Origin: an uncultured Eubacteriales bacterium
Lineage (GTDB): Bacteria; Bacillota; Clostridia; TANB77; CAG-508
Reading direction: 5' to 3'
Length of the DNA: 64,000 nucleotides
Assembly (NCBI GenBank): GCA_949288175.1
Contig: CASEIV010000001.1
Location: 62,001-126,000 of the forward strand
The position numbers and the translations under genes are program-made. Below are positions 34,032-57,748 of this stretch, in pieces; the first letter of the stretch is position 1; each line of letters begins with the position of its first letter. Under the pieces are notes generated by a model. That model ran no database searches and was not told the origin of the DNA. It saw only the letters and a program-made list of their open reading frames with translations.

Positions 34032-34046
34032 ACAATAAGGACCAAA

Positions 34047-34200
34047 AAGGTGACTTTGGGGACGGAGCAAAAAATCATCATTTATTCTATAAAAAGTTTT
34101 ATAAAAATCTTTATAAAAATGATGATTTTTTGCTCCGTCCCCAAAGTCACCCAAAGTCACCTTTTGTTTCATTTTGGAACGATTTGGCACGTCCCCAACG
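34047..34200. repeat. REPIN-like GGGGACG palindrome
   Basis: AAGGTGACTTTGGGGACGGAG with a TGATGATTTTTT-type continuation pairs with its inverse ending CTCCGTCCCCAAAGTCACC across a loop of about 40 nt (34047-34162). An extra inverted GTCCCC fragment follows to 34200. Between convergent genes; could also act as a bidirectional terminator. Confidence 0.75.
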
Positions 34201-43901: not shown

Positions 43902-44110
43902 GTATTTTGTAGGTGAGGTGTCATCCGTTATTTTTTGAATAATTTCCTCGGCTTGCTTCATAGATGATAACTTCTAAGTTTTTAATAAGCGAGCCTCTCG
44001 CTGTACGCGCTTCCTCACTTATTAAAAACTAAGAATTTATACATCTATTCCACGGCACATTCGTCAATTTATTCAAAAAATAACGGATGACACCTCACCT
44101 GTAAAAATAC
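43902..44110. repeat. Large nested palindrome after the amylase gene
   Basis: Outer arms AGGTGAGGTGTCATCCGTTA with a TTTTTTGAATA continuation pair perfectly over 31 bp with the inverse at 44070-44100 and imperfectly further out. A second inner stem, CTAAGTTTTTAATAAG with its inverse, closes on a GC-richer loop GCCTCTCGCTGTACGCGC. The ends are not GTTAC, so it belongs to another family. It starts 14 bp after the amylase stop and could also terminate transcription. Confidence 0.75.
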
Positions 44111-47746: not shown

Positions 47747-47861
47747 ATGATGATTTTGGGGACGGAGCAAAAAATCATCATTTGATAGTAAATGATAGAA
47801 AATTTAATTTATAATTAAAATTGGAAAATGATGATTTTTTTCTCCGTCCCCAAAATCATCA
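47747..47861. repeat. REPIN-like GGGGACG palindrome inside the remA-rpoZ operon
   Basis: ATGATGATTTTGGGGACGGA with a continuing AAAAAATCATCATTT pairs with its inverse ending CTCCGTCCCCAAAATCATCA around an AT-rich loop. Nearly the same arms as 34047-34162. It begins with the base after the remA stop. Confidence 0.78.
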
Positions 47862-47884: not shown

Positions 47885-48076
47885 ATGATAGTAAAACCTA
47901 GTGTTTCAGAATTACTTACAAAAGCAAATAATCGATATGAATTAGTAATTGCAACGGCTAGAAGAGCAAGACAAATTGCTTCTGGTGCAACACCATTAGT
48001 AGAGACAAAAGAAGAATCACCAGTAACTGTAGCTGCCATTGAAATTGCAGAAGGGAAGGTTGCCATAGAATGTTAG
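47885..48076 (+). CDS. rpoZ: RNA polymerase omega subunit
   Basis: A 63-aa protein: MIVKPSVSELLTKANNRYEL, then VIATARRARQIASGA and VTVAAIEIAEGKV, a compact version of omega. It supports assembly of the beta-prime subunit. ATG 47885 has AAAGGAAATG upstream; the open frame begins earlier inside the repeat. It overlaps the next start by 7 bp. The order rpoZ-gmk is reversed relative to the usual gmk-rpoZ. Confidence 0.9.
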   Translation: MIVKPSVSELLTKANNRYELVIATARRARQIASGATPLVETKEESPVTVAAIEIAEGKVAIEC

Positions 48077-48645
48077 TCATATTATCAGGAGTAGCAGGAG
48101 CAGGAAAAGATACCATAAAAAAAGAACTAATAAAAAGAATGGAAAATGTGGAATCACTTCCTTCTTATACGTCAAGAGCCATTCGTGGAGGAGATGTGGA
48201 AGGAGAAACATATCATTTTATTTCTAGAGAAGAATTTGAAAAAATGATAGAAAATGAAGAGTTTTATGAATATGATATTCATCATAATCAATATTATGGA
48301 ACTTCTAGAAAATTATTAAATGATAAGATAAAAAGTGGAAAAATTATTGTAAAAGATATTGATGTGAATGGAACAGAACATTTAAAAGAATTATTAGGTA
48401 ATGACACAAAAGTGGTTACCATATTTCTACGTGTTCCTAAGGCAGAATTAAAACATCGATTAGAAAATAGAATAGACAAGCCAGGTCCACAAGAAATTAT
48501 ATTACGTTTAAATCGTTTTGATTACGAAGAATCTAGAATTAATTTATATGATTATGTATTAAAAAATAATGATTTGGAAAAAACTGTACAAATTATTATG
48601 ACCATTATAGAAAATGAAGTAAGATTAGAACAAGAACAATCGTAG
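48070..48645 (+). CDS. gmk: Guanylate kinase
   Basis: A 191-aa P-loop kinase converting GMP to GDP. The P-loop reads GVAGAGKDT where GPSGAGKGT is usual. The GMP-binding region is recognisable as LPSYTSRAIRGGDVEGETYHFISREEFE with an IVKDIDVNGTEHLK core and a lid arginine in LRLNRFDYEES. The variant P-loop keeps the lysine and threonine needed for ATP. It overlaps rpoZ, supporting translational coupling. Confidence 0.88.
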   Translation: MLVILSGVAGAGKDTIKKELIKRMENVESLPSYTSRAIRGGDVEGETYHFISREEFEKMIENEEFYEYDIHHNQYYGTSRKLLNDKIKSGKIIVKDIDVNGTEHLKELLGNDTKVVTIFLRVPKAELKHRLENRIDKPGPQEIILRLNRFDYEESRINLYDYVLKNNDLEKTVQIIMTIIENEVRLEQEQS

Positions 48646-48724
48646 AATGCAACAAAATTAAAATTAGACAATCCTATTATAAATATACAAAAAATAAGCA
48701 TGAATAGAGATATTTGTGTTTATT

Positions 48725-48752
48725 TTTTTGCTCCGTCACTAAAATTACCCCA
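48725..48752. repeat. Decayed GGGGACG repeat fragment
   Basis: TTTTTGCTCCGTCACTAAAA and TTACCCC; resembles one arm of the 47747 and 34047 palindromes. Confidence 0.45.
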
Positions 48753-48796: not shown

Positions 48797-48825
48797 TTGA
48801 CATAATTTTATTTGTATGATATAAA
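48797..48825 (+). promoter_or_regulatory. Strong sigma-A promoter of the 48879 unit
   Basis: TTGACA (48797-48802), 17 bp, TATAAA (48820-48825). Initiation would be near 48832. Confidence 0.75.
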
Positions 48826-48878
48826 ATGAGAGAAGAAACTTGTAAAAAAATTCTCATGTGAAGGGAGGAGGAATAAAC

Positions 48879-49097
48879 ATGGGGAGAAAAAAAGAACCAA
48901 CCATTGGTTGGTTCGGAAATAAACTAGGAAAAATGGACTCGAGGGGGAGAGTAATAGTAAGTTCTCTCCAGAGTCCAACAGACGGAGGAGAACTCCGTCT
49001 AGAGCCATTTTTGGAGGATACCGTAATGGTTCCTCCAGCGAGCAGGACTGGAGTGAAATATCCTGCAAGCCAAGAAAAAAAGAATAAAAATGAGTAA
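48879..49097 (+). CDS. 72-aa ORF coinciding with a run of strong hairpins
   Basis: ATG 48879, with GGGAGGAGG 8 bp upstream, opens MGRKKEPTIGWFGNKLGKMD and ends with a KNKNE tail. Codon use (CTC, CAG, GGG, AGG, TCG, AGC) is unlike every neighbour. The same DNA folds into at least four consecutive hairpins: GAACCAACC/GGTTGGTTC (48896-48916), GGACTC..GAGTCC with inner GGAGAG/CTCTCC, AGACGGAG/CTCCGTCT and GGAGGA/TCCTCC. It has its own promoter and terminator. It may be a structured non-coding RNA, a small acquired protein gene, or both. No family is recognised. Confidence 0.45.
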   Translation: MGRKKEPTIGWFGNKLGKMDSRGRVIVSSLQSPTDGGELRLEPFLEDTVMVPPASRTGVKYPASQEKKNKNE

Positions 49098-49155
49098 TCA
49101 TTTTTATTCTTAGGCTGAAAACGGTTTAGTAGAGAGTAACTGCTAAACCGTTTAA
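49079..49155 (+). terminator. Two tandem hairpins ending the 48879 unit
   Basis: AAGAATAAAAATGA/TCATTTTTATTCTT overlaps the ORF stop; a second stem AAACGGTTTA/TAAACCGTTT lies at 49118-49153. The rest of the gap to 49410 holds only the uvrA promoter. Confidence 0.75.
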
Positions 49156-49294
49156 TCATGGCCTTTTTAGGGAATTTTGAAAATGATAAATAAAATTTAA
49201 ATAGAAGAAGTAAGACTTTTTGTGAGAAATGGTTACTATGTTTTTTTAGATTATTACCAAATACTTTTTTGAATTTTAATTATAAAGCAAACTC

Positions 49295-55899: not shown

Positions 55900-55976
55900 A
55901 AATACCCCTTTCTCATTATACTAGTATCTACCAAACTTAAAAAACTTATACATTATTATATGATAAGAAAAGAGAA

Positions 55977-56160
55977 GTTGCCAAAGGGGACGTGCCTTTT
56001 TGGCAACTTTTATAAAATAAATTTTAGATTTATCTTAAATAAAGAAACTGACCCGACATAGAATAGCAATCAAAGATTGCAGTCGGATACCACAGAACCT
56101 TGTTGTCTAAGACAATAAAAAGAAAGTTGCCAAAAAGGCACGACCCCTTTGGCAACTTAT
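55977..56160. repeat. REPIN-like pair of inverted GGGGACG repeats
   Basis: GTTGCCAAAGGGGACGTGCC then TTTTTGGCAAC at 55977-56007, and the inverse AGTTGCCAAAAAGGCACG and ACCCCTTTGGCAAC at 56127-56158. The two units are near-identical in opposite orientation, as in REPINs, and the two-hairpin repeat copy 2 sits between them. Confidence 0.8.
56063..56116 (-). repeat. Two-hairpin dispersed repeat, copy 2
   Basis: Reverse-orientation match of 5023-5077: 18 identical bases at one end (ATAGCAATCAAAGATTGC) and 23 at the other (within AGAACCTTGTTGTCTAAG and ACAAT), with a different 13-14-nt middle. Confidence 0.75.
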
Positions 56161-56161
56161 T

Positions 56162-57748
56162 TTAATAATAAATCATATAATCAATGTCTGGAAAGACACA
56201 ATCTTTTTTTGAGATATCTTTTAAGAAATCTTCATCAATAGTATTTTCTTTGATTTGATAATATAATTTGGTAAATCGACCAATATGGTCTTTAATTCTT
56301 TTTTTAGCATAATCTACCATAGTACCATTTGTGATGATAAATAGCCAATCACTACTTTGAGCTAATAATAATTCACGAGCACATTGATTTAAAGCTTTTT
56401 TCTTCAAGCCTTTTGCATTTGGATATAAATGGGCTAATTCGCACATCCTGTCACCTGCAACATGAAGATGCCTATGAGCATAATCATTTGTTTGATTTAA
56501 CCACACTTCACTGTATCCATTAGCGCCCCAACTAGAACGACAAGGTGAAGCAACTTGCATATTTGGGTATTTATCAATATACTCAGATGGTGTAATTAAT
56601 TCAAAATTGCAATCATCATAATAAATTTTCTTAAATAAAACATATAACCAATATGGTCCTTCATACCACCAATGACCATATAATTCAGCATCATAAGGGC
56701 ATAAAATAATTGGTGGATTTTCTGTATATTGAGAAAGATTTTCAATTTGAGCATTTCTACAGTCAAAGAAGTGACCAGCTTGTTTTTCTGCTGAATCTTT
56801 TGCCCATTGAACATTATAATAATCTTTAAATTCTGTTTTTCCTGTAATTCTATAATATTTGATACCAGTATGAACTCTGACACCATTATGGGCGATATAT
56901 GGTTTAATGTAATCATAATCAGCATCATAACCAATATCACGGTAAAATTCTCTGTAATTGAAATCACCTGGATAACCATTAATAGAACTCCATACTTGTC
57001 TTGAAGATTCAATATCTCTACCAAAAGCGATAACACCTTCAGGAGAAACAATAGGAGCAAAAGTACCATACAAAGGTGTAGGGTCTGCATATAAAATACC
57101 ATGTGTTTCAGTAATAATATAATCAATGCCAAATTCTTTTAAATATTTATCTGCTTCTGGCACATAACCACATTCTGGAAGCCAAATACCACGAGGTTTT
57201 CTTCCAAAATATCTTTCATAAGTTTGAACACCAACAGCGATTTGGGCTTTTACCGTTTTTTCATTGACATATAGTATTGGAAAATATCCATGTGTTGCAC
57301 CACAAGTGATAATTTCTAAAACGCCAATATCTTGAAAATGTTTAAAGGCTTGAATTAAATTACATTTATATACATCTTTAAATAGATGTAAATCATTTGA
57401 ATATCTATCGTAATAGTAATGAGCTAATTGATTTAAACGCTCATCACCAGCAGTTCTTTTAATTTCTTTTCCAGATAATTCGATTAGTTGTTTTAAATAG
57501 CGAATATATTTTCTTTGTAATAATTTATTATCTAACATAGAAAGTAGAGGAGGTGTCATAGACATAGTGATTCTAAATTTAACCCCTTCATCTACTAATT
57601 TTTGAAAATTTGTTAATAATGGTATATAGGTTTCAGATATTGCTTCATATAGCCAAGATTCTTCTAAATAGTCATCACTTTCAGGATGATGGATAAATGG
57701 AAGATGTGCATGAAGAACGAAACTAACATATCCTTTTTTCTCTTGCAT
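56162..57748 (-). CDS. GH57 1,4-alpha-glucan branching enzyme type protein
   Basis: A 528-aa GH57 protein: VSFVLHAHLPFIHHPE opens the barrel, WLPECGYVPEADKYL carries the expected nucleophile glutamate near residue 190, and CPYDAELYGHWWYEGP carries the acid aspartate near 350; the C-terminal DUF1957 domain follows (SSWGANGYSEVWLN). In GH57 branching enzymes this layout makes alpha-1,6 branches in glycogen. It sits directly downstream of the DUF4912 gene, 128 bp apart on the same strand, a recurring pairing. RBS AAAGGAGAATTTAA. Confidence 0.92.
   Translation of the reverse strand: MQEKKGYVSFVLHAHLPFIHHPESDDYLEESWLYEAISETYIPLLTNFQKLVDEGVKFRITMSMTPPLLSMLDNKLLQRKYIRYLKQLIELSGKEIKRTAGDERLNQLAHYYYDRYSNDLHLFKDVYKCNLIQAFKHFQDIGVLEIITCGATHGYFPILYVNEKTVKAQIAVGVQTYERYFGRKPRGIWLPECGYVPEADKYLKEFGIDYIITETHGILYADPTPLYGTFAPIVSPEGVIAFGRDIESSRQVWSSINGYPGDFNYREFYRDIGYDADYDYIKPYIAHNGVRVHTGIKYYRITGKTEFKDYYNVQWAKDSAEKQAGHFFDCRNAQIENLSQYTENPPIILCPYDAELYGHWWYEGPYWLYVLFKKIYYDDCNFELITPSEYIDKYPNMQVASPCRSSWGANGYSEVWLNQTNDYAHRHLHVAGDRMCELAHLYPNAKGLKKKALNQCARELLLAQSSDWLFIITNGTMVDYAKKRIKDHIGRFTKLYYQIKENTIDEDFLKDISKKDCVFPDIDYMIYY

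Follow-up and report, generated by a model that had tools for sequence, protein, structure and literature searches.

Morons, single-gene accessory cassettes equipped with their own promoter and terminator, have been described (PMC2147016). The unit analysed here resembles them in consisting of one small gene with its own promoter and terminator, in its atypical composition, and in its patchy presence between conserved genes. Unlike morons, it is located in the chromosomal gmk-uvrA junction, where no prophage genes were seen; no homologue appeared in the phage or viral collections, and no donor has been shown. The lineage-restricted intergenic small proteins in the part of a smORF survey considered here (PMC11188072) are similar to the product of this gene in length (about 70 codons), in intergenic position, in the lack of a database family and in their narrow distribution. 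Compared with those proteins, this gene possesses much stronger in-frame RNA structure and a complete promoter-terminator unit. Coding palindromes are described from mitochondrial genes of Nematomorpha, where they attain 284 bp within functional respiratory genes (PMC6649704). The gene analysed here likewise carries perfect inverted repeats within a putatively translated, protein-conserved frame, but its stems are of about 6-9 bp, they occur in one bacterial gene, and their maintenance is not demonstrated.

Organisation of the unit

The window, a stretch of 64,000 nucleotides (62001-126000), comes from contig 1 of an AT-rich genome of 1.65 Mb, and its genus was represented by about 200 species genomes. 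Two genes, which from their translations we take to be gmk (48070-48645) and uvrA (from 49396), flank an interval that held, on the forward strand, a promoter, a Shine-Dalgarno site, an ORF of 72 codons and a 3′ end comprising two hairpins and a T-tract. To judge from sequence, this is one gene with its own promoter and terminator. We consider it to be a self-contained single-gene accessory cassette encoding a lineage-restricted, fast-evolving protein, and not a conserved structured RNA (probability roughly 0.78).

The near-consensus promoter proposed in the initial annotation was confirmed. It is of the sigma-70 type (48797-48825), with TTGACA at 48797-48802, a 17-nt spacer, TATAAA at 48820-48825 and a TGn ahead of the second hexamer. 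The automated scan had skipped it because that scan demands a T at position 6. The ORF has its ATG at 48879 and its stop at 49097 (48879-49097) and encodes a 72-residue protein (MGRKKEPTIGWFGNKLGKMDSRGRVIVSSLQSPTDGGELRLEPFLEDTVMVPPASRTGVKYPASQEKKNKNE). The good ribosome binding site noted initially corresponded to a strong Shine-Dalgarno sequence, GGGAGGAGG (48863-48871), and an AGGAGG- or GGAGG-type site was also found in the homologues from the two relatives that carry the gene, G206 and G034. The ORF was indeed richer in G+C than its surroundings (0.43, against approximately 0.25-0.33 in the surrounding 500-base windows). Upstream, a leader hairpin (UUCUCAUGU / ACAUGGGGA, 48851-48885) pairs the start codon and holds the Shine-Dalgarno sequence in its loop. 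It has nine pairs in the window, was kept in G206 with one U-G versus U-A difference, and did not form in G034. A weaker rival pairing of its 5′ arm with an upstream GAGAGAA is possible.

Two tandem terminator hairpins had been proposed for the 3′ end (49080-49168). Both hairpins are present, but only one terminator. The first, a 14-bp AT hairpin at 49080-49111, overlaps the stop codon and lacks a T-tract of its own, so that the 3′ end is one intrinsic terminator with two hairpins and not two complete terminators. The second (49119-49153) is enclosed by a weak GGC/GCC outer stem and followed by TTTTT at 49164-49168. The G034 terminator was similar in plan (GGTAGAA...TTCTACC-TTTTT, with two inner hairpins).

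The strong local stems reported within the ORF were all real, the first of them shifted by two bases. Coding hairpin 1 (48894-48914) is a perfect 9-bp stem, GAACCAACC-ATT-GGTTGGTTC, found with the loop GCT in G206 and absent from G034. Hairpin 2 (48934-48977; 7 + 9 pairs) was mostly retained in G206 and absent from G034, while hairpin 3 (48980-49000), with the perfect 8-bp stem AGACGGAG/CTCCGTCT, formed in neither. Hairpin 4 (49012-49037) pairs TGGAGG with CCTCCA, and a shorter form of it is possible in G034 in isolation. Hairpin 5 (49042-49066), pairing GCAGGA with TCCTGC, was absent from G034. Folding of the whole transcript gave a z-score of -8.2 against 200 shuffles. The ORF alone folded at -76.5 kcal/mol, with z-scores of -6.6 against dinucleotide shuffles and -7.8 against random synonymous codons. 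Against shuffles that kept both the protein and the codon set the z-score was -5.8, that is, the ORF is far more structured than these require, which counts against a plain protein gene. None of 200 sequences was as stable in any of the three comparisons. Control pieces of gmk and of the uvrA start were mostly normal (z about +0.4 to -1.1). When 710 stretches of the window were scanned by fold, the unit took ranks 6, 7 and 9, and four of the five stretches outranking it were situated on long inverted repeats that resemble mobile elements or REP sequences.

Homologues and distribution

A protein search of the genus (about 200 genomes) detected two homologues of the 72-residue protein. That of G206 was 80% identical over 40 residues. 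It follows gmk on a contig that stops inside the gene, and uvrA is found at a different contig's end; the missing part of the gene thus falls in an assembly gap. The G034 homologue (38-42% identical) is located directly before uvrA and is preceded by a regulator of the AraC type and a pair of ABC transporter genes. The promoter pattern TTGACATAATTTN{8,14}ATATAAAAT was found in three of 206 genus genomes, once in each and always before this gene. The window, G206 and G034 share the promoter, and in all three a homologous frame is situated at the gmk-uvrA junction.

The cassette varies in presence at this fixed site, and of the roughly 200 genus genomes 3 carry it. G027 and G183 lack it, and in them uvrA comes almost immediately after the end of the ABC gene. 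The transporter pair upstream in G034 was rejected as a partner of the small gene, since G027 and others carry the pair without it. Among relatives the gmk-uvrA gap could be as short as about 20 nt or exceed 4 kb, and it held differing inserts. One of these (L011, G106:C6) is a different small promoter-gene-terminator unit (MKLKMKNPSKWGRHCLKKQAKSYG..., with an acidic tail) that had no Pfam match, and another small unit, apparently truncated, was found in L008, L012 and L056. The junction is thus a small-gene hotspot. In other species of the genus, elements bounded by long terminal inverted repeats were also observed, in the gap (L013, L014 and L017) and after gmk (L036).

The protein had no family match in Pfam, NCBIfam, PHROGs, PADLOC or PDB. 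DNA similarity searches of 55 relatives recovered, beyond this locus, only short terminator-like stretches, and DNA, protein and profile searches of phage, plasmid and viral-contig collections yielded no relative. Profile searches produced only weak matches in the order and none besides the window in the class, and thus no credible new member. The matches examined were other proteins with local chance similarity, which we take to be AccD and SpoIIIAB-like. Two sphingomonad matches (L049 and L050) were rejected as well, the 28-residue match being dominated by SLQSPTDGG and lacking the MVPPASR motif. AlphaFold gave no confident fold (pLDDT 62, pTM 0.19) with the three sequences available; the absence of a confident model is common with three sequences.

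Protein frame and RNA fold in relatives

The initial annotation had suggested a new structured RNA and proposed weighing covariance among homologues against synonymous substitution in the ORF. This comparison revealed a synonymous signature and no real covariation, so that the suggestion failed by its own test: the protein was conserved with many synonymous changes, and no compensatory changes supported the fold. Gaps in the alignment of the three frames were in-frame. Between the window and G034, 13 of 18 residues were identical in a C-terminal block, nine of those 13 codons differed synonymously, and nucleotide differences by codon position were 4/4/11. Under random placement this pattern had a P of about 5e-5, an optimistic value because the block was picked after the alignment had been viewed. 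The MVPPASR motif was identical in these two genomes despite five third-position changes. A conserved frame with a synonymous excess, as expected of a protein-coding gene, was therefore found. Two antisense frames of 97 and 101 residues were rejected, as G034 has stops within both and the promoter is oriented oppositely to them.

Over the whole 63-codon alignment of the window and G034, dS was saturated and dN was 0.50, versus 0.455 and 0.034, respectively, in gmk. The small gene has thus diverged far more than gmk, while the promoter and early leader differ at few positions. The coding part may be diversifying or may have been exchanged, and three sequences cannot tell these apart. Between the window and G206, dN/dS was about 0.4, indicating that protein constraint is moderate, a point against the accessory-gene reading.

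The G034 ORF showed no excess structure (z -0.05 and +0.9). Together with the synonymous signature and the in-frame gaps, this identifies the frame as what is conserved. The G206 fragment had a z-score of about -2.2 (-2.3 in codon shuffles) and retained only coding hairpins 1 and 2. In hairpin 1, changes from the window were confined to the loop, and hairpin 2 lost two pairs. Changes between these two genomes affected 2 of 50 stem positions and 10 of 49 unpaired ones (p 0.015), and at third positions 0 of 15 and 5 of 15, respectively (p 0.042). Hairpin 3 displayed clustered multi-base differences between the window and G206, with both arms affected. Its 3′ arm reads CTC CGT CTA in the window, TTG CGA in G206 and CGA TTA in G034, all synonymous. 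Among the three sequences there was one double change, which lay in a mostly broken helix and was no more than shuffles gave; conservation of the fold by compensatory changes, as expected of a structured RNA family, was not seen.

Interpretation of the unit and its hairpins

A stand-alone structured non-coding RNA with an accidental ORF would account for the strong fold, the promoter and terminator and the lack of a known protein family. Yet the structure is lost in G034, where the synonymous signature and in-frame gaps are found. Rfam returned no match at the gathering score, and relaxed matches were far below it. In a search with an RNA model, no loci rose above noise except the three already described; G034 did so weakly (E 0.0017, all further matches being at 0.055 or worse), with a 110-nt match that begins in the leader. 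We regard such an RNA as very improbable. An alternative is that the transcript is dual-functional in the window/G206 lineage, combining the protein with a hairpin chain that is selected to control translation, for RNA stability or for a function of the RNA itself. The codon-shuffle z-scores of both genomes, the avoidance of stems by changes, the retention of the start-codon hairpin in G206 and the synonymous codon differences in the 3′ arm of hairpin 3 are in its favour. However, the hairpins are absent from G034, hairpin 3 differs even among close relatives, and the comparison involves two sequences with small counts and no real covariation. We therefore consider dual function unlikely. Of the dual coding suggested in the initial annotation, no more is left than a weak possibility at the level of this lineage, resting on the two hairpins common to the window and G206 and on the spared stems.

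Template switching is known to generate perfect hairpins (PMC8794818). The coding hairpins may, somewhat more plausibly though still doubtfully, be a mutational footprint of this kind, in which switching at quasi-palindromes copied one arm as a reverse complement without selection. Their short, perfect stems and the clustered differences at hairpin 3 agree with this, but hairpin 3 differs from G206 in both arms, which leaves a single switch event undemonstrated; three sequences do not allow the ancestral state to be reconstructed, and stem avoidance points the opposite way. The pattern at hairpin 3 is compatible with template switching, selection or both, which are not separable. A combination, in which template switching and then selection built, in a doubly constrained young small-protein gene, a hairpin chain controlling its own translation or stability, seems less likely still than dual function. 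The coding hairpins are best described as a lineage-specific oddity, possibly weakly constrained and possibly derived from template switching; they would be a feature of the window mRNA, and partly of that of G206, that selection has not kept across relatives.

In the accessory-cassette reading that we prefer, the cassette would be lodged in the variable gmk-uvrA junction, and its strong, housekeeping-type promoter is predicted to drive a short monocistronic mRNA for the 72-residue protein that would stop at the two-hairpin terminator. By covering the start codon, the leader hairpin may dampen or tune translation in the window and G206. Of the initial suggestions, an imported gene fits best, given the odd base composition, the occurrence in few genomes and the variable junction, although no donor was found, and the cassette was probably acquired by horizontal transfer. 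Only rapid change and patchy presence suggest that the protein is accessory or conflict-related ('moron'-like); that it acts in conflicts with phages or mobile elements would be a guess from the same rate and patchiness. Against the accessory-gene reading, only three homologues are available, one of them truncated by assembly.

Plainly read, this is one more lineage-restricted small gene, worth annotating as one that a screen based on folding would wrongly take for a non-coding RNA. Even when a promoter and a terminator accompany it, a fold z-score of -8 is insufficient for calling a structured RNA, and one distant homologue can settle the coding-versus-RNA question. Should the hairpins prove to be maintained, the gene would be a compact case of joint selection on RNA structure and protein in a young gene.

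Inverted repeats elsewhere in the window

The strongest fold signal in the window (z about -14) was a 41-nt inverted repeat at 43905-44106, 93% complementary, with arms 120 nt apart and a second nested pair. It looks like a miniature mobile element. Inverted pairs of a repeat of about 35 nt (TGATGATTTTGGGGACGGAGCAAAAAATCATCA type) were found at 47748-47861 and 34045-34165, and also in L010 and L015. This repeat occurs in the gmk-uvrA gap of relatives too, as a REP/MITE-like family of the genus, and a remnant of it (TTTTTTTGCTCCGTC) is located shortly before the cassette (about 48723-48737). A further 41-nt inverted repeat, also 93% complementary, was found at 55970-56163 and contains GTTGCCAAAGGGGACGTG. 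The sequence GTTGCCAAAGGGGACG recurs, besides this repeat, at about 16580 and 33663.
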